A stretch of DNA of 54,137 nt, taken from contig CAIRCM010000033.1 in the NCBI GenBank assembly GCA_903877125.1, positions 1-54,137 of the forward strand. The letters are read 5' to 3'. Origin of the DNA: an uncultured Acetobacteraceae bacterium. Its GTDB lineage: Bacteria; Pseudomonadota; Alphaproteobacteria; Acetobacterales; Acetobacteraceae. Positions 1,815-15,863 of this stretch are shown here, piece by piece. The position numbers and the translations under genes were made by a program. Numbering within the stretch: position 1 is the stretch's first letter; every line of letters starts with the position of its first letter. The notes under the pieces were generated by a model, which saw only the letters and a program-made list of their open reading frames with translations, was not told the DNA's origin and did no database searches.

Positions 1815-2867
1815 TTATCGTGTCGGAGCGGCGGACAGGGTTTTTCGCCGCTTCACCGCAGCCAGCCGCAGAGCATAGTCGATCGCCTCGATCAGACTGT
1901 CCTCATTCGCGACCCCGGTCCCGGCGATGTCGAACGCCGTGCCGTGATCGACCGATGTGCGGATCACCGGCAAGCCCAGCGTGATGTTCACGCCGGACAA
2001 CGCCCGCCAGACGCCGGTGACCGGATCGACGTTGAAGCCCAGCAGCTTCACCGGGATGTGGCCCTGATCGTGGTACATCGCCACGACCGCATCGTACTGG
2101 CGGGCGCGCAGTTTGACGAAAACGGTATCGCCGGAAACCGGCCCCTGGATGTCCATCCCCTCGGCACGGCATTGTTCGATCACAGGCGAGGAAACCTCGA
2201 TATCCTGCCGGCCGAACAGCCCGCCCTCGCCGGCGTGCGGGTTGAGCGCGGCAATGGCGACGCGCGGCTTGTCGATGCCGAGGTCCAACATCGCCTGGTA
2301 GGTGATGTCGATCGTGCGGCGCAGGCGTTCCGGGGTCAGCAGCTTGGGCACGTCTTCCAGTGCCACATGCGTGGTGACATGGGTGACCCGCATGTCGCCA
2401 TGGGCCAGCAGCATGTAGCTGTTCGGGATACCGGTGAGGTCCGCCAGCATGTCGGTATGCCCGGCGTATTTGTACCCGGCGAGGTTCAGCGCCTCCTTGT
2501 TCAGCGGTGCCGTCACGATGCCGTCGATCTGGCCCTCGCGGGCCAGCGCCACGGCGCGTTCCATCGCCATGTAGGCGAAGCGGCCGCATTCCGGATCGAC
2601 ATGACCGAACCGAACCGGGCTGCGTTCGTCGCTGGCGGCGTGCATGGCCAAAGCGGGCAACTCCGACGCGCCATCCACATCGGGAAATTCCAGCGTTTCC
2701 TTTAGAATGCCCCGAGCGGCGTGGAGGGCGGAACGGTGGCCAATGACTAGCAGCCGCAATTCCCCCGCATCCAGCCGCGGTTTCAACCGCCGGGCGGCCT
2801 TGACGATGATCTCCGGCCCGACTCCGGCCGGATCGCCCATGGTGATGCCGAGGCAGGGCGCGGTCAT
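1815..2867 (-). CDS. PdxA-family phospho-hydroxyacid dehydrogenase, probably PdxA2 (4-phospho-D-threonate/erythronate dehydrogenase)
   Basis: A 350-aa protein opening with ITMGDPAGVGPEI. PdxA metal ligands are visible as H167 (THVAL), H211 (NPHAGE) and H266 (YHDQG). PdxA proper oxidises 4-phosphohydroxythreonine in vitamin B6 synthesis. PdxA2 proteins instead oxidise and decarboxylate 4-phospho-D-threonate or -erythronate to dihydroxyacetone phosphate, and they work with DUF1537 kinases. Two facts favour PdxA2 here: the segment YHDQGHIPVKL resembles the PdxA2 form rather than the biosynthetic form, and a DUF1537 kinase lies three genes upstream in the same operon. Its ATG overlaps the stop of the upstream gene by one base (TGATG). 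About ten extra residues appear near 279-291 (DPVTGVWRALS), ahead of the conserved GVNITLGLP. A B6 role cannot be excluded because no other pdxA is visible here. Confidence 0.85.
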   Translation of the reverse strand: MTAPCLGITMGDPAGVGPEIIVKAARRLKPRLDAGELRLLVIGHRSALHAARGILKETLEFPDVDGASELPALAMHAASDERSPVRFGHVDPECGRFAYMAMERAVALAREGQIDGIVTAPLNKEALNLAGYKYAGHTDMLADLTGIPNSYMLLAHGDMRVTHVTTHVALEDVPKLLTPERLRRTIDITYQAMLDLGIDKPRVAIAALNPHAGEGGLFGRQDIEVSSPVIEQCRAEGMDIQGPVSGDTVFVKLRARQYDAVVAMYHDQGHIPVKLLGFNVDPVTGVWRALSGVNITLGLPVIRTSVDHGTAFDIAGTGVANEDSLIEAIDYALRLAAVKRRKTLSAAPTR

Positions 2868-3766
2868 CAAAGGACCCCGGCCACCGCGTCGGCGTAGGCC
2901 TGCTGCGCGGCCAGATGATCGGCCACCGTCTTGCCCGCGATCCGACGGTGGTGCCGCCGCTGGAAGGTGTTGGTCAGCGTCAGATGGGTGGCGCCGGCGT
3001 CTTTCCAGAACCTGGCCTCCTCCCGCCATTCGGCCGGCGTGCCGGCACCGGCGGAGGTCCAAACCTCGATCCCGATGGCGTCTTTTGCCCGACCGGCCGC
3101 CGCCGTGAGGTCGTGCAGTTTCGCGAATTCGGCCAGTGCGGCGTCCCCGGGCGGGTAGGCGTTCATGATCCAACCGTCGCCAATCGTGGCGATCCGCTGC
3201 AAGGTCTGCGGTACATGGCCGCCGAACCACACCGGCACCCGGCCGGACTTGGGGCGGGGGTTGATGCCGGCATCCTCGATCTTGTGCCAGCGGCCCTCGA
3301 ACGTGACGTGATCGTCAGCCCAGAGCTTCTGCATCACCTCCACCTGTTCGGCCGACCGGCGGCCTCGGTTGGAAAAATTCTCGTTGAGGCCAGTGAATTC
3401 CACCGGGTTCCAGCCGACGCCGACGCCCAGGCGGAAGCGCCCGCCGCACAGCACGTCCAGGCTTGCCGCCTGTTTGGCCACCAGCACCGCTTGGCGCTGC
3501 GCCAGGATCAGTACCTGGGTGGAGAACTCCGTCGTCTTGCGCGCGAACCCGGCGATATAGGCGAAGCAGACGAACGGATCGTGGAACAGATCGGCGGAGG
3601 TGTTGCGATCGCCCCAGTCCGGCCTTGTCGCGACATTCACCCCCAGCACGTGATCGGCCAGGCCCAGGTTGGTGTAGCCCTGTGCCTCGGTTTCGGTCAC
3701 GAAATCGCGCATCGTGTCGGGGTCGCCGCCGATATCGTGCAAGGGAAGCATGACGCCCAATCGCAT
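2867..3766 (-). CDS. LLM-class (luciferase-like) flavin-dependent oxidoreductase
   Basis: A 299-aa TIM-barrel protein of the bacterial luciferase/F420-dependent family. It begins MRLGVMLPLHDIGG and contains LGLADHVLG, the family segment GGRFRLGVGVGWNPVEF, and VPVWFGGHVPQTLQRIATIGDGW. Members use FMNH2 or F420H2 to oxidise or reduce small substrates; cofactor and substrate cannot be read from the sequence. It starts 2 nt after the alpha/beta hydrolase and its TGA shares a base with the pdxA-like ATG, so it is translated as part of that operon. Start chosen at 3766 because the family N-terminus begins there; the open frame upstream is the shadow of the hydrolase gene. Confidence 0.88.
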   Translation of the reverse strand: MRLGVMLPLHDIGGDPDTMRDFVTETEAQGYTNLGLADHVLGVNVATRPDWGDRNTSADLFHDPFVCFAYIAGFARKTTEFSTQVLILAQRQAVLVAKQAASLDVLCGGRFRLGVGVGWNPVEFTGLNENFSNRGRRSAEQVEVMQKLWADDHVTFEGRWHKIEDAGINPRPKSGRVPVWFGGHVPQTLQRIATIGDGWIMNAYPPGDAALAEFAKLHDLTAAAGRAKDAIGIEVWTSAGAGTPAEWREEARFWKDAGATHLTLTNTFQRRHHRRIAGKTVADHLAAQQAYADAVAGVL

Positions 3767-3768
3767 GG

Positions 3769-4479
3769 TCAGTCTCCGTTCGGAACAGGGGGGCGGGCGA
3801 GGGTTTCGCCCAAGATCGTCATGACCTGCGCGTTTTGCGCGATCAGCACATGCGGGCCGGCGATCTCGATCGCCTCGGCGGTGGGGGAATCGTCGATGCA
3901 CGCGGCCCAACTCACCAGCCCGTCTTCGCGGCTGTAAAGCGCGGTGCACGGCACCGGCATGGGGTGACGCACCTCCTCCGCCATGCGGGCAAGATCGTCG
4001 CCGGCGAGCAGATGAAAAACCGGTTCGATGGGCAGCCAGAAGCTGCGCCCGGGATCGTGGATGGGGCTGCAGACCGTGACGATGCGGCGCACCCGATCCG
4101 GCATGCGCGCGGCCAGCAGCCGGGCGAACAGTCCGCCCATACTGAAACCGACGATGCTGACCGGTCCGTGCCGGTCCGATAATGCAATCAACCGTTCGGT
4201 CGCGCCCGCGATCAGATGCTCGGTGGGGCCAAAATTGACACCAAGCTCCCAACCGAACGGGTTGTAGCCGATACTGGTCAGGAATGAGCGAACGGTTGCG
4301 GTGAACGGATCGCCACGTCCGAGGCCCGGCAACGCGAGCACCGCATGGCCGTCACCGCGTGGGGCGGCGGCCACCAGATCGGCGATCGGTAACCGGGGGG
4401 ACGGCATGACAAGCGCCATCGCCTCGGCGGCGGTCAGGTGCATGCTGGGGCGCTGCGTGTCGTGGGTGGTGAAAGCCAT
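3769..4479 (-). CDS. Alpha/beta-hydrolase (esterase/lipase-like)
   Basis: A 236-aa alpha/beta-hydrolase. The nucleophile elbow is GFSMGG with Ser113; Asp186 (SREDGLVS) and His210 (GPHVL) stand at the right spacing to complete a Ser-Asp-His triad. The strand before the oxyanion region reads HAVLALPGLG. There is no signal peptide, so it is cytosolic. The substrate is unknown. It lies 10 nt after the DUF1537 kinase and 2 nt before the LLM oxidoreductase, inside the acid-sugar operon, where it could hydrolyse an ester or lactone intermediate (inference). Confidence 0.85.
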   Translation of the reverse strand: MAFTTHDTQRPSMHLTAAEAMALVMPSPRLPIADLVAAAPRGDGHAVLALPGLGRGDPFTATVRSFLTSIGYNPFGWELGVNFGPTEHLIAGATERLIALSDRHGPVSIVGFSMGGLFARLLAARMPDRVRRIVTVCSPIHDPGRSFWLPIEPVFHLLAGDDLARMAEEVRHPMPVPCTALYSREDGLVSWAACIDDSPTAEAIEIAGPHVLIAQNAQVMTILGETLARPPVPNGD

Positions 4480-4489
4480 GGCGGACAGT

Positions 4490-5440
4490 CTAACGGTCCA
4501 GCAGGCGGACCAACAGCCCCGGGTCCCCGAACCCTCCCGATTTCGACACGATGCGCTGCCCCTCCCACCTTCCGCCGCGCAGGATCGAGGTCGGGACGCC
4601 GGGTTCGATCTCGCCGTCCACGGTCAAGCCGATGGCCCCCAGCGCCTCGCACAGCGCCCGCAGCGTGGCGCCGCCCGTCACGAACAGCGTGCCGGGTCGA
4701 GGGATCGCGGTGAGCACTTGGACGAAGCGGGCGACGATCAGCGGGAGCGCGGCGTCGCGGCCAATGCCCTTGGGCAGGTCTTGCGTTACGACTCCCGGCT
4801 TCCCCGCGGCGGCAAGCACCTGGGTCGCGGTCACCGGATGATCGGACCCGATCAGCGCGAGAACCGGGGGAGGCAATGCCGGTTGGGGGACTGGCCGGCG
4901 TTCCGCCAGCGCGCCGGCCAGTCCGGCGCTGCCGACCCACAAGACGGTTTCGGGCGTCATGCGGTTCCGAGCAACGATCGCATCGAGGTCGGCGTCGGAT
5001 TCCGCGTCCTCCAACGGTACCGGGGCGCCGCAATCGCGCCATTTGTCCGCGTCACGCATCCATTGCCGCCCGCCGCGTGTCACCCGGCCCTGATCCTGGA
5101 AGGCCGGGGCTATGACGCATCTATCGAAGGCCGGGCGGCAGGCGTCGAGCTCCAGGGCGACGTGCCCGCGCAGCACACTGTCGATTTTCTTGAACGCGAT
5201 ATCCCCGCCATGCAGCGCACTGGACAGCCGACGCAGTGTCGTCGCGGCATGCTCGGCATCCATATCGCGGGTGCCGCTATCGATCGCGACGGTTCCGCTG
5301 GGGATTGGGCCTGCCCACACGACGGGTACAGGGCCAACGAGCGGCACGAACCGCGCGGCGCTGTCCAACGCGCCGGTCAGGTCGTCGGCGAGCAGGCGAA
5401 GGACCGGTCGGTCAGGCGGCGAGGGCGTTGAAGCTTGCAT
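4490..5440 (-). CDS. Four-carbon acid sugar kinase family protein (DUF1537; DtnK/OtnK-like)
   Basis: A 316-aa protein. The N-terminal sugar-binding segment has LLADDLTGALDSAARF (about 16-31) and the middle has FKKIDSVLRGHV. The nucleotide-binding part has WVGSAGLAGAL, FVTGGATL and the terminal KSGGFGDPGLL. The family phosphorylates 3-oxo-tetronates, D-threonate or D-erythronate at O4. Typical members exceed 400 residues, so this one is about 100 shorter, though both ends are present. It overlaps the preceding hypothetical gene by 29 nt and shares the operon with a PdxA2-like protein, its usual partner. The best specific guess is a D-threonate/D-erythronate-type kinase. Confidence 0.85.
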   Translation of the reverse strand: MQASTPSPPDRPVLRLLADDLTGALDSAARFVPLVGPVPVVWAGPIPSGTVAIDSGTRDMDAEHAATTLRRLSSALHGGDIAFKKIDSVLRGHVALELDACRPAFDRCVIAPAFQDQGRVTRGGRQWMRDADKWRDCGAPVPLEDAESDADLDAIVARNRMTPETVLWVGSAGLAGALAERRPVPQPALPPPVLALIGSDHPVTATQVLAAAGKPGVVTQDLPKGIGRDAALPLIVARFVQVLTAIPRPGTLFVTGGATLRALCEALGAIGLTVDGEIEPGVPTSILRGGRWEGQRIVSKSGGFGDPGLLVRLLDR

Positions 5441-5894
5441 GGGGCCATCGCAGGGTGGGGTCGCCCACCGTTCGTGGCAAGGTCATGCTTTTGATCCGCG
5501 CCTCGGCAACCCGGATGTGGGCCTGGCAGAAATCGACCGTCGAATTGCATTGCCACAGGATATGGCGGGGGTTGTTTCGCTCCAACGTCAGAAATATCCG
5601 GGCTTCCACCGGCGTGTCGGTTCGCAAGGCCGAGCGGAGCGCGACGTCCGTTTCATAAATGGCGATCCCATGATCCGCCGGCACCCCCTCGAAAAGATGG
5701 CAGATCGCTCGGACGATCTGGTGGCTGGCTTCCTGAAAAAGCTGATAGGCGGACGCATCCGGCGGAACCGTCACTGTCGAAACATACGTATTTGCTCGGG
5801 CGAGCGGCGTTACGCTTTGTGCCAGGAGGTCGGATTTTTGCGCAACATGCGCCAACCGCGGGGAGATGGTCTTCGCCGGGATCGCGATGCTCAT
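5412..5894 (-). CDS. Hypothetical protein, 160 aa, first gene of the acid-sugar block
   Basis: I do not recognise this 160-aa protein with confidence. It has no signal peptide, membrane segment or known motif. The pattern of a beta-strand (YVSTVTV), a long helix (AYQLFQEASHQIVRAICHLF) and then strands is compatible with a small alpha+beta fold; a hotdog or AfsA-like fold is one possibility and is only a guess. It is a credible gene: the ATG at 5894 is preceded by GAGGA at good spacing, and the 3' end overlaps the DUF1537 kinase by 29 nt, implying coupling. Two cysteines and a histidine cluster near WQCNSTVDFCQAH (about residues 113-125). Confidence 0.6.
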   Translation of the reverse strand: MSIAIPAKTISPRLAHVAQKSDLLAQSVTPLARANTYVSTVTVPPDASAYQLFQEASHQIVRAICHLFEGVPADHGIAIYETDVALRSALRTDTPVEARIFLTLERNNPRHILWQCNSTVDFCQAHIRVAEARIKSMTLPRTVGDPTLRWPHASFNALAA

Positions 5895-5971
5895 GATACG
5901 GGTCCTCGCATTTCAGTGGAGGCACCATATGGACCAAATGTATCATCGCGGTGTCGTGAAAAAGGCAATTT

Positions 5972-5989
5972 GTATCGTGCGTATCGTGC
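5972..5989. repeat. Tandem 9-bp direct repeat, possible operator
   Basis: GTATCGTGC at 5972-5980 is repeated immediately at 5981-5989, with the related GTGTCGTG at 5951-5958. An inverted pair, ATGATAC (5893-5899) and GTATCAT (5940-5946), flanks the start of the gene at 5894. The repeats lie in the 105-nt gap between the two coupled blocks of the operon, so they could bind a regulator of the second block. No regulator gene is nearby and no convincing -35/-10 pair is seen. Regulatory role is speculative. Confidence 0.3.
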
Positions 5990-5999
5990 CATTCAACCG

Positions 6000-6935
6000 T
6001 CACGCGACGCGATGTAAAAGCTGCCCCCCTTCGACGGCTGCATGACTGTTTTGCGCGGCAATGGCAAAACTACGATCGAACGTTCCAGTTGTGATCCAGC
6101 CTATATGCGGCGTCGCGACGACGTTCGGCAAGGTAAACAAGGGTTCCGCGCAATCGGGCGGTTCGGCGGCGAAGACATCGAGGCCGGCGCCGCCTAGGTG
6201 TCCCGAGCGGAGGGCCGCGACCAAAGCGGGCTGGTCGATCAGACCGCCGCGTGCGGTATTGATCAGGATTGCCCCTGGCTTCATGCGAGCCATCGCTTCC
6301 GCGCCAATCAAGCGGTCGGTGGCATCGGTCAGAGGCAGATGTAGACTTATGATATCGGACTCCGCCAGCAAGGCGTCGAATGATCGATATTCCCCTACCG
6401 CATCGGCAACCCGATTGCGCGCGGTGTAGAGAACCTGGCAACCCAACGCCCTGAGGACAGGTGCGAGCAGTCGTGGAATCGATCCGTAACCGACCAGACC
6501 CACCGAGCGGCCGCCGAGTTCTCCTATGCCGTCTTGTAACGATGGGTCGCTCCAAACGCCGTTGCGCAAACCGCTGTCGAAACGGAGTATGCGTCGGATC
6601 GTTGTCAGCATAAGCGTCAACGCCAATTCCGCCACCGCTCGGGAATTCGTGCCGGGCAGATTGCAAACCGGGATGCCGCGTGCCTTCGCGGCGGCGAGAT
6701 CGATGGTGTTCACGCCAACGCCGATTTTTTGGATCAGCTTCAGCCGTGGGGCGGCGGCGATCATCTCGGTGGTGCAGGGTTTCAGGACGTGCCAGAGAAC
6801 GTCGCATTCCGGCAAGAGGCGCATCAGCAGCGCGTCGTCGGTTTCAGGACAGATCGTGACGTCCAAGTTCGGAATTGCGGCAAGCCTGGAAGCCAGATCG
6901 GGGCCGGCGCAGTTATGGAAAACCACCTTGATCAT
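6000..6935 (-). CDS. D-isomer-specific 2-hydroxyacid dehydrogenase (NAD(P)-dependent)
   Basis: A 311-aa protein of the D-2-hydroxyacid/phosphoglycerate dehydrogenase family. The substrate half includes IQKIGVGVNTIDL. The Rossmann turn is VGYGSIPRLLA (about 148-158), where the third Gly of GxGxxG is Pro. The catalytic residues are all present: Arg229 (NTARGG), Glu258 (AAEPP) and His277 (TPHIGW). It interconverts 2-oxo acids and D-2-hydroxyacids with NAD(P)H; the substrate is unknown. Its ATG overlaps the stop of the enolase-like gene by 4 nt (ATGA), so the product of one may feed the other. A sequence this close to SerA in architecture but only 311 aa long lacks the ACT regulatory domain. Confidence 0.9.
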   Translation of the reverse strand: MIKVVFHNCAGPDLASRLAAIPNLDVTICPETDDALLMRLLPECDVLWHVLKPCTTEMIAAAPRLKLIQKIGVGVNTIDLAAAKARGIPVCNLPGTNSRAVAELALTLMLTTIRRILRFDSGLRNGVWSDPSLQDGIGELGGRSVGLVGYGSIPRLLAPVLRALGCQVLYTARNRVADAVGEYRSFDALLAESDIISLHLPLTDATDRLIGAEAMARMKPGAILINTARGGLIDQPALVAALRSGHLGGAGLDVFAAEPPDCAEPLFTLPNVVATPHIGWITTGTFDRSFAIAAQNSHAAVEGGQLLHRVA

Positions 6936-8218
6936 TTCGACCGACCCAAGACCGATCCACCGGCGTAGCGTGCCTTTCCGCCCAGGACTTCCTCGACGCG
7001 CAGCATTTCGTTCCACTTCGCCATGCGCTCGCTGCGGGCGAAACTGCCAACCTTCAGCTGTCCGGCACCCCAACCGACGGCGAGGTGCACGATGGTGGTA
7101 TCCTCGGTTTCGCCGGAACGGGCTGACACGATGGCGGAATAGCCGCATTCCTTCGCGGCGTTCCACGCCTCCAGCGTTTCGCTGATGGTACCGCGTTGGT
7201 TCGGTTTCAGCAGCACAGTGTTGGCCGCGCCGATTTGCGCCGCGGCACGCACACGGGATGCCTCGCTGACCAGGAAATCGTCGCCAACGATCTGCACTTT
7301 CCGGCCCACCTCGGCCGTGAAGGCCTGGAAGCCTTCCGCGTCGTCCTCGGCCAACGGGTCTTCGATCGACAGCACGGGATAGCGGGCGATCCAACCGGTC
7401 AGCAGCTTCACCATCGCCGCGGTATCGAGTTCCCGGTCTTCCAGTGCCAGTTTGTAACGGCCGTTCTTGCCGAATTCCGAGGCCGCGATGTCCAACGCGA
7501 TACCGACCTGTTCGCCGGGCCGAAAGCCCGCGCGTTCGATGGCGCGAACCAGCGTGTCCAAGGCTTCCTCGTTCGTCTTGAAGGCGGGCCACCAGCCGCC
7601 TTCGTCGGCGACGCCCTGAAGGGTCCCTGCTTCCTTCATCAGCAGACCGGCATGGCGGTAGACCTCGGCGGTCCAATCCAGAGCTTCGGCGAAATTTGCC
7701 GCGGCGGGGCACATGACCATGAAGTCCTGGATGTCGACACGCCGGCCCGCATGGGCGCCGCCGCCGAAAATCTGGATCTGCGGCAGCGGAATCAGTGTCG
7801 CGTCCGCACCGCCGATGTAGCGATAGAGCGGCAACCCAGCCTCATGCGCACAGGCGTGAAGCGCCGCCATGGAAACCGCCAGCACGGCGTTGGCCCCAAG
7901 GCGCGACTTGTTCGGCGTGCCGTCCAGGTCGATCAGCACCTTGTCCAGTGTCCCTTGATCCGCGGCGTCCAAGCCTGTGACCGCTCGGGCGATTTCCCCG
8001 TTCACATTGGCGACGGCGCGGCGGACATCGTAGCCGCCGAAGGCTGGTCCGCCATCGCGCAGATCGACCGCCTCGCCCGATCCCGTCGATGCGCCGGCGG
8101 GTGCGATGGCGCGTCCGACCGCACCGGATTCCAGCAGAACGTCCGCTTCGACTGTGGGGCGGCCTCGGCTGTCCCACACGCGTCGGCCGTGGATGAAGGC
8201 GATCTTGGTGTCGGTCAT
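6932..8218 (-). CDS. Enolase-family protein with altered active-site pocket (enolase paralogue)
   Basis: A 428-aa full-length enolase homologue. Retained (yeast numbering in brackets): Ser loop AGASTG, His156 in GGGAHA [159], general acid/base Glu206 in ADEGG [211] and Lys338 in LLKPNQ [345], metal ligands Asp243, Glu286 and Asp313 [246, 295, 320], and Lys389 [396]. Changed: the QEFM segment reads QDFM (Glu168 to Asp165), and the near-invariant SHRSGETED reads SARSGETED (His373 to Ala366). KVNQIG also reads KPNQRG. The enolisation machinery is intact but substrate-contacting residues differ, so a substrate other than 2-phosphoglycerate is plausible. It is locked by ATGA overlaps between a kinase gene and a dehydrogenase gene, an unusual setting for glycolytic eno. 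It could still be the housekeeping enzyme. Confidence 0.85.
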   Translation of the reverse strand: MTDTKIAFIHGRRVWDSRGRPTVEADVLLESGAVGRAIAPAGASTGSGEAVDLRDGGPAFGGYDVRRAVANVNGEIARAVTGLDAADQGTLDKVLIDLDGTPNKSRLGANAVLAVSMAALHACAHEAGLPLYRYIGGADATLIPLPQIQIFGGGAHAGRRVDIQDFMVMCPAAANFAEALDWTAEVYRHAGLLMKEAGTLQGVADEGGWWPAFKTNEEALDTLVRAIERAGFRPGEQVGIALDIAASEFGKNGRYKLALEDRELDTAAMVKLLTGWIARYPVLSIEDPLAEDDAEGFQAFTAEVGRKVQIVGDDFLVSEASRVRAAAQIGAANTVLLKPNQRGTISETLEAWNAAKECGYSAIVSARSGETEDTTIVHLAVGWGAGQLKVGSFARSERMAKWNEMLRVEEVLGGKARYAGGSVLGRSK

Positions 8219-9210
8219 TGGCGTAACTCCCTGGTCCAGGCCTGCCGGACCGTATCGAGGCAGTCGGGCGGTTCCGACAGCAGCGCGCATGCCACGCGGC
8301 GCACCCGGTCCTTGTCCTGTTCGGCGACGATGTACTCGACCGGCGATTTTCCATCTACCCGCGCCAGGAACAGGCCCGGCAGCAGATGGGCGGCGCGTCG
8401 TTCGAACGCCGCCGGCGCTTCCCAGGCGATCCCCGCGCGATAGGCCTCAGTCATCGTGTCGAAGCACGCGAGGAATCCGTCCCGGGCAGAGGGCGTCCAG
8501 AGGCATTTCAGCAGCAGATGATTGAGGCAGAAGGCCAGATCGAATGCCGGGTCGCCCCACCAGGCGCATTCCGCGTCCAGGAACACTGGCCCGTTTGGTC
8601 CGCACAGGATGTTCTTCGGGCTGACGTCGCCATGCACCAGGGCACGCTTGTTCGTCTGGATCATGCTCACCAGCGCCGTGAGCGCGGGCGCCATGTCGGG
8701 ATGCGCTCGGGCTGTCGCCACCAGGTACGGCTCCAGCCGGATATCGTAGAAAATGCCATCGGTGGGGAACGCGGCGGCGACCGACGGATCGGCGGCGGTG
8801 GCGGCGTGGATCCGAACCAGGGTCGTCGCGACCCCAGCGGCAAAGGCCGGGTCCGCGTGACCGTCCCGCAGTTGGGATTTCCAAAGCGGATGGTTGTCGG
8901 GCGGCAGGAACGTCATCGCGAGCACGCCGCCGGCCTCATCCTGGCCCAGAAGCGCCGGTGCAGCGCCGGGGACAGCGGCATTCGCGCGTTGCATCCAGCG
9001 GGCTTCATACAGATTGCGCTCGACCGGCGCCTGCCAGTCGGCCGCGACGCGCAGTTTTGCCAGTGCCCGTTTGACGCAGATCGGACCGGCCGCCGCATCG
9101 ATGCGCCATATGTCGGACGATACACCGCCGGTCAGCCGGTCGCCGGTCGCCGCGTCATCGACCGCGATGCCCATCCGCCGCAGTGCAGCGAGAATGTCCC
9201 CGGCGATCAC
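8215..9210 (-). CDS. APH/choline-kinase-like phosphotransferase
   Basis: A 331-aa small-molecule kinase of the aminoglycoside phosphotransferase fold. The N-terminal nucleotide lobe has GGVSSDIWRI and the lysine segment ICVKRAL. The catalytic loop is VHGDVSPKNIL (Brenner-type HGD...N) and the metal-binding segment is FLDAECAWWGDPAFDLAF. The overall pattern recalls methylthioribose or homoserine kinase-like proteins that phosphorylate a hydroxyl of a metabolite. The GTG at 9210 is chosen because it overlaps the upstream TGA (GTGA), matching the other 4-nt junctions of the operon; a GTG at 9225 would add five residues. In context it may phosphorylate the substrate of the enolase-like protein. 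Confidence 0.85.
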   Translation of the reverse strand: MIAGDILAALRRMGIAVDDAATGDRLTGGVSSDIWRIDAAAGPICVKRALAKLRVAADWQAPVERNLYEARWMQRANAAVPGAAPALLGQDEAGGVLAMTFLPPDNHPLWKSQLRDGHADPAFAAGVATTLVRIHAATAADPSVAAAFPTDGIFYDIRLEPYLVATARAHPDMAPALTALVSMIQTNKRALVHGDVSPKNILCGPNGPVFLDAECAWWGDPAFDLAFCLNHLLLKCLWTPSARDGFLACFDTMTEAYRAGIAWEAPAAFERRAAHLLPGLFLARVDGKSPVEYIVAEQDKDRVRRVACALLSEPPDCLDTVRQAWTRELRQ

Positions 9211-11363
9211 CGCGCCTTTTTCCACTCATCCAGCCAGGCGTTCAAACGCTTCCCGCCATCCTTGGGCGCGGCGTCGACGGCGTGCCAGGCGAGAAACGCG
9301 GTGCCCTCGGCGCCGATCATGACGACTCCATCCATCGCCTTGGTGCGGCGCAACGCCTCCAGCGCCTGTTCGGGGGTCTGCACGACCGGCCCGGCGACAT
9401 TCAGCGAGGTGTTGACCGAGACCTCCACCCCCACACGCCGGCCCATGGCGCACAGGTAGGCGTGGGTGAAGGGGTCCGCGTCGGGGCGGACGATCTGGAT
9501 GCGGCTGGTGTTGTCCAAATGGATCACGGCGGGGATCAGCCGATGGCTGTCGGGCCGGGGGCGCGCGGTCAGGACCATATAGTTGTAGGCGTTGTAGTCG
9601 TCGTCCGACGCGCCGTCCTGCAGGACGAACAGTTGTTGCGCGGCCGCGAGCGTCGCCATCGGGGCGAGCGGTCGGAACGGCTCGCGGAATTTCACCAGCC
9701 GGTTGATCGTTTCCAGCGACCGCGCGTTGCAGGGGTTGGCGAGGATCGAGCGATGTCCGAGTGCACGCGGTCCGGTTTCCGCGGCTCCCTGAAACAGGCC
9801 CAGCACACCGTCCCGCGCGATCACGGAGGCCATGAAATCAGCGACCCCAGTAGGATCGGAAACCGACCCCAACGCCGTCCAGCCGATTTCCTTGCTGGCA
9901 CGCAATGCGGTTTCGATCTCGGCATCGGATGGCGCCTCGCCGCAATAGAAGGCATGCCGCTGGGGCGCTCCGGGCTTGGCGCCGGCCTGCATTGCGAACT
10001 GGAAGGCCGCACCCGCCGGCACGCCGGGCTCGCCAGGGATGGGCGGCACCCAGACATGCAGGCAGGTATCCGAGCGGCCGAAATTGCGCCGGTAATACCC
10101 CGCGTCGAAATGGTCCATGAGCCGCATGTTGGCGATCGCGTTCAACGCGGTGCCGCCGGTCAAAACCAACTGTGCCGCTCCGGTCTGGCGGATGTAATGA
10201 TCGACGATGTGGAAAAGGGCATCCTCGAACACCAACTGCGTCGCGGCGGCCTTGTCGAAACGTTCCTGCGCGCTGGTGGTCTCGCCCGTTGCGTCGACCC
10301 GCATCACCGCGTCGGGGTTCCACATTTTCTCCAGCGGAATCGGCGGCCCGAGGACCTCGGCCAGTGCGGGCGTGTACGGTTCCGCCAGCAGGCGGCGAGG
10401 CCAGTTCGCCAGCGCGCGGTTCAGCCGAACGACGCCGTTGGGTGCGAAGTGAAAAATTTCACGCAATTTGCGGTAATACGGATTGGTCATCCGATCGCTG
10501 TCGCCCCAGGCGACCGCGCCCATGTATCGTCCCTCGCTGCTCAGGATCGTCCAGCCGCCCTGGCTGGAGCTGATCATGCTGTAAAATCCGCCGAGGGAGT
10601 CAAAGACGTCCTCGTTCCGGTACAGCAGTTCGAGCCGCCCTTGGCGTGCCAGGTAGACGGAAATCGCGCCGTCATCGCCGATCCCATCGATCACCGTGAT
10701 CAGCACCGGCTGGTCCGATCCGACGAACGGCGAAGCCGCATAGGAATAATAGGCGTGGTTGCCATGGTGGCGCATGCCGATGATCGGCATCGCCGCGTCA
10801 AGGCCAAGCTGGTGCCCCAATCGGGCGGGTGCCCTTGTCGCTCGACGGATGTGCTTGATGTTCATCCCGCCAAACTGCTCGGGGTCCAGCAGGATCCGGC
10901 TCGCCGGCAGTTCGGCGCAAACCGCGCCCACCAGGGTCGTGGCCAGCCGGACGTAATCCCAGCTCGCCACGCAGGCATGAATGTCCTTGGCGCTTAACCC
11001 GATGCCCGCAGCGGTTCGCATCACCGCGTCAAGGCTTTGCTTCGGGTAGTCGGTGCAGTTTTTGACGCCGGTATAGCGTTCTTCCTCATCGTTGCGGATG
11101 AGGTTGACGCCGCGTTCGGCCGAGACTTCCACCAGTGCCACGCCGCTGTTGTGGCCCGCCGGACCGATGCCGAGCAGCCATGCGGTTTCGCCGCGCCGCA
11201 GTTTCGCGGTCAGAGCAGCGGACCGTTCTCGTGCGTAGGCGCTGGTGGGCGTGAGAAAGGAACGCCTTGCCGCATAGGCTGACAGCACGGGGTAGGCCAC
11301 CTTTTGGGCGAACTGGCCGACCAGGCGGTGGGTAGGACCGAAGCGTCCGAACGTTGTCGGCAT
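9207..11363 (-). CDS. Carbamoyltransferase, NodU/CmcH/TobZ family
   Basis: A 718-aa two-domain O-carbamoyltransferase. The Kae1-like domain has the HNSGVAL strand (H71), metal-binding MRHHGNHAYY (H199, H200, H203), VIDGIGDDGA (224-233) and the nucleotide motif LTGGTALNAIAN (401-412). The C-terminal domain has ETGPRALGHRSILANP (529-544) and the NTSLN segment at 651-655. These enzymes use carbamoyl phosphate and ATP to form carbamoyl-adenylate and transfer the carbamoyl group to a hydroxyl, typically of a sugar or antibiotic. An N-terminal extension of about 60 residues precedes the core. The usual Gly-Arg before the Glu of the C-terminal motif is here Gly-Ala-Ala-Glu. It is the first gene of the coupled block and diverges from a GMC oxidoreductase gene. 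Confidence 0.9.
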   Translation of the reverse strand: MPTTFGRFGPTHRLVGQFAQKVAYPVLSAYAARRSFLTPTSAYARERSAALTAKLRRGETAWLLGIGPAGHNSGVALVEVSAERGVNLIRNDEEERYTGVKNCTDYPKQSLDAVMRTAAGIGLSAKDIHACVASWDYVRLATTLVGAVCAELPASRILLDPEQFGGMNIKHIRRATRAPARLGHQLGLDAAMPIIGMRHHGNHAYYSYAASPFVGSDQPVLITVIDGIGDDGAISVYLARQGRLELLYRNEDVFDSLGGFYSMISSSQGGWTILSSEGRYMGAVAWGDSDRMTNPYYRKLREIFHFAPNGVVRLNRALANWPRRLLAEPYTPALAEVLGPPIPLEKMWNPDAVMRVDATGETTSAQERFDKAAATQLVFEDALFHIVDHYIRQTGAAQLVLTGGTALNAIANMRLMDHFDAGYYRRNFGRSDTCLHVWVPPIPGEPGVPAGAAFQFAMQAGAKPGAPQRHAFYCGEAPSDAEIETALRASKEIGWTALGSVSDPTGVADFMASVIARDGVLGLFQGAAETGPRALGHRSILANPCNARSLETINRLVKFREPFRPLAPMATLAAAQQLFVLQDGASDDDYNAYNYMVLTARPRPDSHRLIPAVIHLDNTSRIQIVRPDADPFTHAYLCAMGRRVGVEVSVNTSLNVAGPVVQTPEQALEALRRTKAMDGVVMIGAEGTAFLAWHAVDAAPKDGGKRLNAWLDEWKKAR

Positions 11364-11469: not shown

Positions 11470-13080
11470 ATGGCTGAAATGTTGGAAACCGATTACGTCG
11501 TCGTGGGCGCCGGATCGGCCGGCTGCGTGATGGCCGCGCGCCTGACCGAAGAACCCGGCACGCAGGTTACCCTGCTGGAGGCCGGGGGCAACGACAACCA
11601 TTTCTGGATCCATGTGCCGTTGGGCTTCGGGAAAACCTTCGCCGACCCCAAGGTCAACTGGATGTTCGAAACCGAACCGGATTCCAAGGGGCGACGCATG
11701 TACTGGCCGCGCGGGAAGGTGCTGGGCGGCTCGTCGTCGATTAACGGCATGATCTACATCCGTGGGCAGCACGAGGATTTCGATCACTGGCGGCAGCTTG
11801 GAAACCCCGGTTGGTCATCGGGCGACGTGCTCCCGTATTTCCGCCGGTCGGTCAGCCAGGAACGAGGTGCCGATGAGTATCACGCGACCGATGGGCCGTT
11901 GGCGGTTTCCGATGTGCGCTACACCCATCCGCTGTGCGATGCGTTTATCGAGGCGGCGGTGGAACTCGGTTTCCCCAGGAACAACGATTTCAACGGCAAA
12001 GTGCAGGAGGGCGTCGGCTATCAGCAGACGACAACGAAGAACGGCAAACGTTGGTCCACGGCGGTTGGCTACCTGAAGCCCGCCATGGGCCGCCCCAATC
12101 TGCGGGTGATCACCCGCGTGCTGACGGACCGGGTGATCTTCGAGGGCAAGCGCGCGGTTGGGATCGCGTTCCAGGAAAACGGCGTGTCGAAAATCATTCG
12201 TGCCCGGCGGGAAGTCATCTTGTGCGCCGGCGCGATCGGTTCGCCGCATATTCTGTTGTTGTCGGGCGTCGGACCGGCGGAGCATCTGCGGGACCATGGG
12301 GTCGACGTGGTGCACCATCTGCCCGGCGTCGGGAAATCGTTGCAGGACCATTATTCCGGAGCGGTCAAGTTGCGCTGCAACCAGAAAATCACCTTTAACG
12401 ACACCATGCAGAGCCCGCTTCGGAAACTCGGCGTCGGGCTGAATTATCTGCTGCGCCGCCGCGGGCCGTTGACGATGGGTGTGGGGCCGGTTGCGCTGTT
12501 CGGGAAGACGCGGCCGGAATACGCGTCACCGGATGTGAAGTTCACCCTGTCCCCGTTCAGCGCCGACAACCCGGCGAAGGGTCTGCACGATTTCTCCGGC
12601 TTCACGCTGATCGGCTATCAGTTGCGGCCGGACAGCCGGGGCGAGCTGAAACTGCGTAGCGCCAATCCTCGCGACACCCCGGCGATGTTCCCGAATTATC
12701 TGTCCGCCGAACTGGATCAGCGGACTATCGTCGACAGTTTGAAGTGGTGCAGGCGGTTTTTGGAAACGGATCATCTGAAACGATACATCGAATCCGAATA
12801 TCTGCCCGGCACCGACGTGCGGTCGGACGACGAATTGCTGGATTACGCGCGTCGCACCGGCGGCACGACTTTCCATCAGACAAGCACCTGCCGCATGGGG
12901 CCGGACCCGATGGCGGTCGTGGATCCGGAGTTGCGGGTGCATGGGTTGGAAGGGCTGCGCGTCGTGGATGCCTCGATCATGCCGACCGTGGCATCGGGGA
13001 ACACCAACGCGCCGACGATCATGATCGCCGAAAAGGCCTCGGATATGATCCGTGGGCGGACGATGGCAGCGGCGGTTTAG
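11470..13080 (+). CDS. GMC-family FAD-dependent oxidoreductase (choline/alcohol dehydrogenase-like), copy 1
   Basis: A 536-aa flavoprotein. The FAD-binding turn is [15 protein letters not shown] near the N-terminus, followed by the GMC signatures [15 protein letters not shown] and [16 protein letters not shown]. The C-terminal catalytic region has His in [12 protein letters not shown] and Asn in SGNTNAPT. The family oxidises alcohols to aldehydes with FAD; the substrate is not determined. There is no signal peptide. GGGGGAAG about 9 nt before the ATG at 11470 supports the start. A close paralogue of nearly the same length lies 1.2 kb downstream, separated by an opposite-strand binding-protein gene. 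Confidence 0.93.
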
Positions 13081-13152: not shown

Positions 13153-14160
13153 TCACCCCCCATCCCCGCTCAGCCCCATCGGAAGAAACAGGTCCTTCCA
13201 CGAACGCGGCATGTGCTTCAGCCGCCCCACCGTGTGCATGAACACCACGAAATCCATCAGCTTCTTCGGCACCGTCGTCCAGTGGTTGTCCGGATCGGCC
13301 ACCATCTTGGTCATTTCGGCCATCGGGTGCGTTTCCTTCGCCAGCTCGATATAAATCGCCGCCGCGTCCGCCGGATGCGCATCGATGAAAGCGTTCGCCT
13401 CCTGCTGCGCATCGAACACCGCCTGGGCGACGGTCTGGTTGCTGGTCCGGTACTTCGGCGCCGCCCCCAGCAGCCCGTTGACGTGCGGCCCGCCCAAAGT
13501 GTCGTTCGATTTCAGCACCAGATGTACGTTCGGCGACGCCAGCTCGTAATAGTAAAACGGCGAGACGGTATAATGGCTGTTCACCTGCGACTTGCCTGAT
13601 ATCACGTTCGCCGTCGCCTCCGGATGCGGCAGGGTCAGTGTTAATGGATCGAGGCGCTCGAACTGATCGTTCCCCCACAACTTCGCCGCCGCCATTTGCA
13701 GTGCGATCGCCTGTGCCGAGATTTTCGCGGTGGGCAGCGCGATGCGGTCCTTGTCGGTGAAATCGGCGATGGTCCTCACCGCCGGATTGTTCGTCGTCAG
13801 CATGAACGGCTGCAGTTGCACCGTGCTCAAGGCGCGCATTTCGCGTTCGGTGCCGACGGTCTTGTCCCACAACGTCGCCAACCCCGGCGTGCCGACGACG
13901 CCGAAATCCACGTCGCCGGTCAGCATCGCGTCGATCATCGCGCCGGGCCCGCCCAGCACCGGCCATTCCACCTTCAGCGCCGGCAAACCCAGCTTGGCGG
14001 CGTGGCGCTCGACGAGCTTCTCGTGTTCCATGACCATGAGCGGCAACGTAGGCAGCCCGTATTGCCGAACGATGCGCACGACAGAGGCGTCGGACGCGGA
14101 CGCGCGGCCTGTCACCGATGGCATCGCGAGCAGTCCCAGGCCGAAATAGCGGCGACGCAT
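13153..14160 (-). CDS. ABC-type substrate-binding protein (TauA/SsuA/NMT1-like), orphan
   Basis: A 335-aa periplasmic binding protein with an N-terminal export signal (MRRRYFGLGLLAMPSVTGRASA). The core pattern is VRIVRQYGLPTLPLMVMEHEKLVE, then GAMIDAMLTGDVDFGVVGTPGLATLW, as in nitrate/taurine/sulfonate-type SBPs. The closing segment HTVGRLKHMPRSWKDLFLP resembles the end of the SBP at 34186-35175, so the two are paralogues. No permease or ATPase gene is adjacent, so it presumably works with a transporter encoded elsewhere. It sits between two GMC oxidoreductase genes, suggesting uptake of the alcohol or acid they process (inference). Confidence 0.87.
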   Translation of the reverse strand: MRRRYFGLGLLAMPSVTGRASASDASVVRIVRQYGLPTLPLMVMEHEKLVERHAAKLGLPALKVEWPVLGGPGAMIDAMLTGDVDFGVVGTPGLATLWDKTVGTEREMRALSTVQLQPFMLTTNNPAVRTIADFTDKDRIALPTAKISAQAIALQMAAAKLWGNDQFERLDPLTLTLPHPEATANVISGKSQVNSHYTVSPFYYYELASPNVHLVLKSNDTLGGPHVNGLLGAAPKYRTSNQTVAQAVFDAQQEANAFIDAHPADAAAIYIELAKETHPMAEMTKMVADPDNHWTTVPKKLMDFVVFMHTVGRLKHMPRSWKDLFLPMGLSGDGG

Positions 14161-14243: not shown

Positions 14244-15863
14244 ATGGCCGACACGTTGGAAGCCGATTTCGTCATCGTGGGTGCGGGCTCCGCCGGTTGC
14301 GTCCTGGCGGCACGGCTGACCGAAGACCCGAACACCAAGGTCATCCTGCTGGAGGCCGGCGGCAACGACTCCAACATGTGGATTCACATCCCCCTGGGCT
14401 TCGGCAAGACCTTCGCCGACAAGCGAGTGAACTGGTGCTTCGAGACGGAACCCGATCCGGGCGCGGGCGGGCGCAAGATCTTTTGGCCGCGTGGCAAGGT
14501 GCTGGGTGGATCGAGTTCCATCAACGGCATGGTCTACATTCGCGGCCAGAACGAGGATTTCGACCACTGGCGCCAGTTGGGGAACCCCGGCTGGTCCTCG
14601 GCCGACGTGCTGCCCTATTTCAAGCGCGCCGAACACCAGACCCGTGGCGAAGACTCGTACCACGCGACCGGCGGGCCACTTTGCGTATCGGACGTGCAGG
14701 ACGGGCATCCGTTGTGCGAGGCCTTCATCCGAGCCTCTGTCGAGGCAGGGTATAAGCGCAACGACGATTTCAACGGTGCCGACCAGGATGGCGTGGGCTA
14801 CCACCAGACGACCATCCGCGACGGCAAGCGCTGCTCGACTGCCGTCGGCTATCTCCATCCGGCGATGAAGCGGCCGAATCTACAGACCGTCACCCACGCC
14901 CATACCCAGAAGGTGCTGTTCGAAGGGACGCGCGCCACAGGCGTCGCGTTTCGCCTCAAGGGCCAGGACCGCGTCGCGCGTGCCCGCCGAGAGGTGATCC
15001 TGTGCGGCGGTGCGATCGGCTCGCCCCAAATCCTGATGTTGTCGGGCGTCGGCCCGCACGCCCATTTGCAGGAGATGGGGATTCCCGTCGTTCACCATCT
15101 GGCCGGCGTCGGTCAAAGCCTGCAGGACCACTACTCCGCGCCCATCAAGCTGCGTTGCACGCAGCCGATCACGGTTAACGATACGATGATGAGCGGGCTG
15201 AAGAAGCTGAAAACCGGGTTGGAGTATCTGATGTGGCGGCGTGGCGACCTGGCGGCCATTTCGGCTTCGGCCGCGCTGTTCGCGCGCACACGTCCGGAGC
15301 TGGCGACGCCGGACGTGAAGTTGTCGATCTCGACTTTCAGTGCCGAACGGCCCCAGGACGGCTTGCATAAATGGTCGGGGTTCACGGTGATAGCATACCA
15401 GCTGCGGCCAGAAAGCCGGGGCGAGATCACGTTGAAGTCGCCCGATCCGTTCACCGCCCCGGCGATGCGACCGAACTACCTGGCGGCCGAGACCGATCGT
15501 CGCGCGATCGTCGATGGTTTGAAGATCGCGCGCGGGTTGCTCGCGTCCCCACATATGCGCGGTTACGTGGCGTCGGAAGACAAGCCCGGCGCAGCCGTAC
15601 AGACCGACGATGACCTGCTGCAGTACGCTCGGGACAACGGCGGCACGGTGTTTCATCCCACCAGCACCTGTAAGATGGGGGTGGACCCCATGGCCGTGGT
15701 GGACCCCGAACTGCGGGTGCATGGGATCGAAGGGCTGCGGGTCGTCGACGCGTCGGTGATGCCAACAGTGGTGTCGGGGAATACCAATGCGGGCACGATC
15801 ATGATCGCCGAGAAGGCGGCAGATATGCTTGTGGGGCGGTCGGCATTGGCTCGGGCCGCGTGA
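14244..15863 (+). CDS. GMC-family FAD-dependent oxidoreductase, copy 2
   Basis: A 539-aa paralogue of the protein at 11470-13080, with near-identical landmarks: [58 protein letters not shown] and SGNTNAGT. The catalytic His and Asn are conserved. The two copies share even the start context (GGGGAAACGCCATGGC versus GGGGGAAGAAACGCCATGGC), which points to a gene duplication. I choose ATG 14244 over the in-frame upstream start at 14118 because of that ribosome-binding site and because the upstream residues overlap the opposite-strand SBP gene. Likely FAD-dependent alcohol oxidation; substrate unknown. Confidence 0.93.
   Translation: MADTLEADFVIVGAGSAGCVLAARLTEDPNTKVILLEAGGNDSNMWIHIPLGFGKTFADKRVNWCFETEPDPGAGGRKIFWPRGKVLGGSSSINGMVYIRGQNEDFDHWRQLGNPGWSSADVLPYFKRAEHQTRGEDSYHATGGPLCVSDVQDGHPLCEAFIRASVEAGYKRNDDFNGADQDGVGYHQTTIRDGKRCSTAVGYLHPAMKRPNLQTVTHAHTQKVLFEGTRATGVAFRLKGQDRVARARREVILCGGAIGSPQILMLSGVGPHAHLQEMGIPVVHHLAGVGQSLQDHYSAPIKLRCTQPITVNDTMMSGLKKLKTGLEYLMWRRGDLAAISASAALFARTRPELATPDVKLSISTFSAERPQDGLHKWSGFTVIAYQLRPESRGEITLKSPDPFTAPAMRPNYLAAETDRRAIVDGLKIARGLLASPHMRGYVASEDKPGAAVQTDDDLLQYARDNGGTVFHPTSTCKMGVDPMAVVDPELRVHGIEGLRVVDASVMPTVVSGNTNAGTIMIAEKAADMLVGRSALARAA

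Follow-up and report, generated by a model that had tools for sequence, protein, structure and literature searches.

Gene content of the locus

The window analysed here is a 54,137-nt contig of an uncultured Acetobacteraceae bacterium (CAIRCM010000033.1; contig C33 of genome G000, an assembly of 5.15 Mb in 231 contigs). Nine open reading frames (ORFs), all on the minus strand, occupy positions 1815 to 11363, and their core is an APH-fold kinase gene followed by the gene of a divergent enolase paralogue. The first block of the locus contained an O-carbamoyltransferase of the NodU/TobZ type (9207..11363, 718 aa; Carbam_trans_N and Carbam_trans_C, with matches to TobZ and GdmN chains), the kinase (8215..9210, 331 aa from a GTG at 9210; PF01636), the enolase paralogue (6932..8218, 428 aa; Enolase_N and Enolase_C), and a reductase of the D-2-hydroxyacid dehydrogenase family (HADH; 6000..6935, 311 aa; PF02826 and PF00389). 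A gap of 105 nt (5895..5999) separated this block from the second, which encoded an AfsA-type hotdog domain protein (5412..5894, 160 aa; AfsA profile and hotdog fold), a short DUF1537-family kinase (4490..5440, 316 aa; PF07005 and PF17042, SBD_N and NBD_C), an alpha/beta hydrolase that may be a lactonase or esterase (3769..4479; PF00561), an LLM oxidoreductase (2867..3766; TIGR03619, F420-type, 225.2 bits against a cut-off of 166.9), and a PdxA-family dehydrogenase (1815..2867, 350 aa; PF04166).

The ORF coordinates agreed with the layout given in an earlier note on this DNA, namely nine minus-strand genes, 4-nt overlaps in the first block (carbamoyltransferase/kinase, kinase/enolase, and enolase/HADH), the 105-nt gap, and a tight second block. 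Pfam and NCBIfam searches likewise agreed with its family assignments. The first of the 4-nt overlaps presumes the kinase start at 9210; an in-frame GTG at 9225, preferred by the codon-model gene finder, would lengthen it to 19 nt. This gene finder was built for the analysis, and its start codons are estimates. In the second block, the hotdog and DUF1537 genes overlapped by 29 nt, gaps of 10 nt and 2 nt lay on either side of the hydrolase gene (toward DUF1537 and LLM, respectively), and the LLM and PdxA genes overlapped by 1 nt. No promoter-like or terminator-like consensus match was found in the 105-nt gap, which is weak evidence as other promoter types fell outside the scan, and the RNA fold of the gap was not unusual (z −0.29).

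Conservation and active site of the kinase-enolase pair

A scan of genome contigs for the enolase paralogue yielded 181 confirmed stretches, and the best 80 of the 181 were taken as species loci. The closest named loci among these best 80 came from uncultured Acetobacteraceae and from Rhodopila/Acidisphaera. A kinase gene was located no more than 400 nt upstream of the paralogue and on the same strand in 77 of the 80 species loci; the exceptions were L074, L086, and L111, and in L074 and L111 the kinase was further off. HADH was directly downstream in 33 of the 80. The paralogue began with ATGA or GTGA in 58 of the 80 loci, a start that permits, and does not prove, a 4-nt overlap. Among genus loci, the kinase was upstream in 24 of 25 (the kinase-less locus, G026, begins at a contig end) and the dehydrogenase was present in 21 of 25. 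The locus sets overlap, several genus genomes being species records of the same organism (identical tree rows). Six plasmid loci, picked among the 40 matches listed from 1120 records, had the kinase directly upstream in three cases and a following dehydrogenase in none. For the phylum loci (G331 excluded) these counts were three of five and one of five. As a control, loci of ordinary enolases (flanks of ~1.5 kb) contained this kinase in 0 of 28 cases; two of the 28 contained an LLM match.

The best NCBIfam match of the kinase was the MTR kinase model, with a score of 47 bits out of 275, and its motif residues (His, Asp, Asn; Asp, Glu) were kept in all 102 relatives aligned. The Arg, Glu, and His of HADH were kept in 56 of 56. 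Judged from sequence and gene order, the APH-fold kinase and the divergent enolase form a core that travels together in Alpha- and Betaproteobacteria, often beside a 2-oxoacid/2-hydroxyacid reductase. Three of the 80 species loci were labelled Acidobacteriota or Binatota. Two other labels are suspect: the enolase rows of L037 (Nitrosovibrio) and L036 (Asaia) were identical to those of G032 and G016 from the window's own genus.

The paralogue scored 506.9 bits against the enolase equivalog model TIGR01060 (cut-off 300) and shared 50% identity with the ordinary enolase that is also encoded in its genome. Rows covering at least ~380 residues were aligned, comprising 96 paralogues (the window copy included), a set defined by at least 54% identity to the query, and 24 ordinary enolases. 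The Glu of the QEFM motif was replaced by Asp (window residue 165) and the His of SHRSG by Ala (window residue 366) in 96 of 96 paralogues, while all 24 ordinary enolases had Glu and His. Ala41, Gln149, Gly152, and Trp210 of the window protein were also invariant in the 96 paralogues; at these positions ordinary enolases had Ser, Asn, Asn, and Ala. All 120 aligned sequences agreed at the base Lys, the second acid (yeast Glu211), all three metal ligands, the phosphate-binding Arg and Ser, and the loop residues. We take the conserved positions to be Lys345, Glu211, Ser39, His159, Arg374, Ser375, and Lys396 of yeast enolase, together with its three metal ligands.

Both replaced residues are placed at the leaving hydroxyl by comparison with human ENO2, for which an excerpt of PMC6651268 describes an inhibitor with its 5'-hydroxyl hydrogen-bonded by Glu167 and His371 and its phosphonate held by Arg372. 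His371-Arg372 corresponds to the HR of SHRSG because the order of residues matches. Glu167 is presumably the Glu of QEFM. With two active-site residues replaced, the paralogue might be a non-catalytic regulator or binding protein, a reading that the 96-of-96 invariance of the base Lys, second acid, metal ligands, phosphate site, and loop residues makes very improbable.

In a tree, paralogues and ordinary enolases were split by a branch with Shimodaira-Hasegawa-like approximate likelihood ratio support of 100 (quick method, midpoint root); the G331 paralogue sat on a very long branch. In relation to TIGR01060 enolase, the paralogue shares the fold family, Mg ligands, catalytic Lys, and phosphate site, but it differs in having its own branch, Asp and Ala in place of the Glu and His that contact the leaving hydroxyl, a kinase partner, and an ordinary enolase beside it in the genome. 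Co-occurrence with an ordinary enolase was assessed in the own, genus, and phylum genomes, the 80 species loci standing apart from this count. The phylum sample of 299 genomes had an enolase match in 285, and the paralogue, read from best E-values and the places listed, was present in the window's own genome and in six others (G357, G219, G156, G091, G370, and G331), with two enolase matches each. Within the 33 genomes of the genus, 25 contained the paralogue at 76% or more (truncated at one end in G028 and G018); a partial copy was seen in G026 and a 29-residue fragment in G020. Of the 25, G014, G002, G023, and G016 (64-84% complete) showed no ordinary enolase and G015 showed only fragments.

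Modular composition of the operon

The full nine-gene order was confined to two of the 33 genus genomes (the window's own and G009), and G003 and G028 retained much of it. The two blocks were adjacent in three of 33 (own, G009, and G003) and probably in a fourth, G028, where contig ends intervene, so that the possibility raised in the earlier note, that the blocks never co-occur elsewhere, does not hold. Identity between G009 and the window was highest for the enolase paralogue and LLM (92% each), followed by PdxA (91%), carbamoyltransferase (87%), kinase (85%), and HADH (80%), and was lowest for the hydrolase (71%), DUF1537 (66%), and hotdog proteins (47%). G003 had seven of the nine genes; the hotdog and hydrolase genes were absent, and the carbamoyltransferase was internally deleted with a single frame kept. 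This G003 gene (L122:4856-6409) lacks ~180 internal residues. In G028, the genes from HADH to PdxA, then dnaJ, were on one contig, and a GMC oxidoreductase gene, the kinase, and the enolase paralogue were at the end of another. Such recurrence, complete in G009 and extensive in G003 and G028, exceeds what chance would give.

Partial combinations were also common. DUF1537 followed kinase-enolase-HADH in G032 and G016, with a pyridoxal-type decarboxylase gene intervening in G016, and no PdxA gene was found within the stretch compared in either genome. Locus L096 had the order kinase-enolase-HADH-DUF1537-PdxA. Both blocks were present on different contigs in G011, and DUF1537-PdxA without this LLM gene occurred in eight more genus loci. 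Separate conservation, another outcome that the earlier note had considered adverse, was found in part: G021 had DUF1537-LLM-PdxA and no enolase paralogue, and, for example, G001, G006, G007, G010, and G024 (99-100% complete) had the paralogue while lacking any close relative of DUF1537. Either block is also found by itself, and the nine-gene set is not one conserved pathway.

These distributions bear directly on the proposal of the earlier note, a single nine-step route through a carbamoylated intermediate. The overlapping genes on one strand and the full set in G009 speak for it, but in relatives neither the carbamoyltransferase nor either block is tied to the rest, and such a route is very unlikely. 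What stands of the proposal is the acid-type chemistry with a kinase, an enolase-type step, and a DUF1537/PdxA module; the one route with a carbamoylated intermediate is not supported. A single pathway for all nine genes was rejected on account of the separation of the parts in relatives. The nine genes are a composite operon built from modules, with a probable catabolic role.

The second block contains the most familiar of these modules, a DUF1537 kinase and a PdxA-family dehydrogenase in one operon, here and in relatives, as in the DUF1537/PdxA2 pathways for D-threonate and D-erythronate. The window genes keep the motifs that we take to be those of DUF1537/PdxA2 acid-sugar pathways. The best solved relatives of the PdxA protein included PdxA2-type enzymes, one of them named D-threonate 4-phosphate dehydrogenase. 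Excerpts of the literature link DUF1537 to four-carbon acid sugars (PMC10580937) and describe bacterial breakdown of L-threonate to dihydroxyacetone phosphate (PMC12540250). The window differs from the known pathways in its short DUF1537 protein, in the LLM and hydrolase genes lying between, and in the junction with the kinase-enolase block. Both Pfam domains of the DUF1537 protein were matched in part, alignment showed that it lacks the middle segments of longer relatives, and the protein has GGAT for GGET (Ala in 4 of 12 aligned relatives, Glu in 8 of 12). GGAT was seen in the window, L119, L122, L172, and L175, all beside an LLM gene, and the other aligned relatives had GGET; L176 has an LLM gene and yet keeps GGET. 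The window PdxA protein (1815-2867) has an insertion of ~11 residues after LLGF relative to solved PdxA2-type chains. The LLM protein was above the curated TIGR03619 cut-off, and CofD was above its cut-off elsewhere in the genome, which makes an F420-type LLM enzyme plausible. Across the loci compared, orthologues of the hydrolase were seen in G009 and G028 alone.

The carbamoyltransferase is an optional insert. In G028, G001, and G011 the GMC gene was followed directly by kinase and enolase with no carbamoyltransferase between; no carbamoyltransferase match was found anywhere in the G028 or G001 genomes, and that of G011 was located elsewhere in the genome. The window enzyme shares both Carbam_trans domains and the motif His residues with NodU/TobZ O-carbamoyltransferases, but it scored 93.8 bits on the NodU model (cut-off 1000) and is optional in relatives. 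Its neighbours included no recognisable nodulation or antibiotic gene. Two GMC oxidoreductase genes lie next to the block in the window (11470-13080 and 14244-15863), the first divergent from the carbamoyltransferase gene; several relatives likewise have a divergently oriented GMC gene beside the block. Between the two, on the minus strand at 13153-14160, is a 335-aa protein with no Pfam match at 1e-5.

The 160-aa protein left as unknown in the earlier note is a single AfsA-type hotdog domain, present in 3 of the 33 genus genomes. Against Pfam AfsA (cut-off 24) the G009 orthologue scored 36.1 bits, and the window and G028 copies were below the cut-off at 19.6 and 21.1 bits. A model from a three-sequence alignment had a mean predicted local distance difference test (pLDDT) score of 64.7 (50 of its 160 residues scored below 50), and at this moderate confidence matched hotdog folds like those of FabZ and thioesterases; a single-sequence model was poor (mean pLDDT 45.1). 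The protein shares the hotdog domain match and fold with AfsA/ScbA butenolide synthases, but it is a single short domain, and the window copy falls below the Pfam cut-off. AfsA enzymes join dihydroxyacetone phosphate to 3-ketothioesters, in a family that includes a Burkholderia enzyme (excerpt of PMC7756379). The window could accordingly hold a biosynthesis cluster, in which dihydroxyacetone phosphate from DUF1537/PdxA and a 3-ketoacyl thioester would give a butenolide that the LLM enzyme reduces and the carbamoyltransferase decorates. The hotdog gene does adjoin the predicted dihydroxyacetone-phosphate-forming module, and CofD is present in the genome. Opposed to this are the fast evolution of the single domain, its rarity in the genus and absence from the seven-gene G003, the presence in G028 of the hotdog protein with no carbamoyltransferase, and a scan of the ten other window proteins, which revealed no gene for polyketide or fatty-acid synthesis. 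Such a cluster is therefore improbable.

Proposed reaction of the pair

Our preferred reading is that of a composite operon in which an enol phosphate is formed from a C3-substituted 2,3-dihydroxy acid by the kinase and the remodelled enolase; taken as a whole, we consider it evenly poised between right and wrong. The reductase would make, or receive, a 2-hydroxy acid, and the kinase would phosphorylate its 2-hydroxyl. In the enolase, abstraction of the C2 proton by the conserved Lys and departure of the 3-hydroxyl would then leave a 2-oxo-3-deoxy acid in its enol phosphate form. Without Glu and His around this hydroxyl there may be room for a C3 substituent, and the substrate would thus be larger than glycerate, for example an aldonic acid of four carbons or more. 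In the lineage of the window, this core was joined to DUF1537-LLM-PdxA, a putative variant of the established pathway by which four-carbon acid sugars yield dihydroxyacetone phosphate, with the hydrolase, hotdog protein, and carbamoyltransferase as likely lineage-specific additions.

More tentatively, and with some doubt, the pair may represent an undescribed and widespread sugar-acid dehydration, in which the 2-hydroxyl is phosphorylated first and an enolase with a rebuilt pocket then removes water to leave a high-energy enol phosphate from which ATP is recoverable. If so, the product would be an enol phosphate, as opposed to the free 2-keto-3-deoxy acid released by known dehydratases.

Neighbouring genes in other taxa offered some context for this proposal. 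On Paracoccus and Roseibium plasmids, one stretch contained LacI, the kinase, the enolase, an FAH-family hydrolase, an SDR, a sugar-type ATP-binding cassette importer, and a tricarboxylate-type transporter. No aldonate dehydratase was among the annotated genes shown for these stretches, in a gene table known to be incomplete. Known 2-keto-3-deoxy acid routes end with an SDR and an FAH hydrolase, a tail that would fit an enolase standing in for the dehydratase on these plasmids. Two unrelated reductase families adjoined the pair, D-2-hydroxyacid dehydrogenase and PanE/ApbA, the latter preceding the kinase in L063, L087, L092, and L231. Genes that follow the enolase in ten betaproteobacterial loci fell into a single cluster, to which an EamA transporter from a different locus also belongs.

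Several observations weigh against the preferred reading. The kinase was away from the position directly upstream in three of six plasmid and two of five phylum loci, though within ~10 kb there. The G331 member fell below the pairing-count threshold, and a kinase-like gene (41%) overlaps its paralogue. With the species loci drawn as the top 80 out of 181 stretches, the near-universal pairing speaks for close relatives, and the paralogue set itself was drawn by identity to the query. Neighbours differed widely, with no such dehydrogenase directly downstream in 47 of the 80 species loci and no reductase beside the pair in many betaproteobacterial loci, so that several pathways may use the pair. 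No member of the paralogue/kinase group has a known substrate.

In Rhizobium (L113 and L227) the kinase and reductase genes have a phosphoenolpyruvate (PEP) carboxylase gene as a neighbour, which also counts against the preferred reading, as it fits an ordinary PEP product. It favours a three-carbon route, as in the serine cycle: the reductase would convert hydroxypyruvate to D-glycerate, the APH-fold protein would be a new glycerate 2-kinase, and the paralogue would form PEP. The TIGR01060 score is in keeping with this, as are HADH matches to hydroxypyruvate/glyoxylate reductase and phosphoglycerate dehydrogenase models, with scores below the cut-offs. The route is nonetheless rather unlikely, given the alteration of both leaving-hydroxyl residues throughout the paralogues and the ordinary enolase already in the genome; that a search of open-licence PMC papers found none pairing 'glycerate 2-kinase' with 'aminoglycoside phosphotransferase' is weak evidence in the same direction.

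The earlier note knew of no described pathway with this gene set; none was found in the open-licence PMC literature, and no paper was recognisably on the kinase and enolase-paralogue pair, judged by titles and abstract starts. Public records of Rhizobium, Paracoccus, and Roseibium plasmids annotate the paralogues as 'phosphopyruvate hydratase'. Should the paralogues act on another substrate, as in the preferred reading, many of these labels would be wrong, and one of the oldest folds of glycolysis would have a new function that can be tested directly. In Rhizobium indicum (L113:17898-22728), the kinase, reductase, and plasmid-borne PEP carboxylase genes stand in a row.

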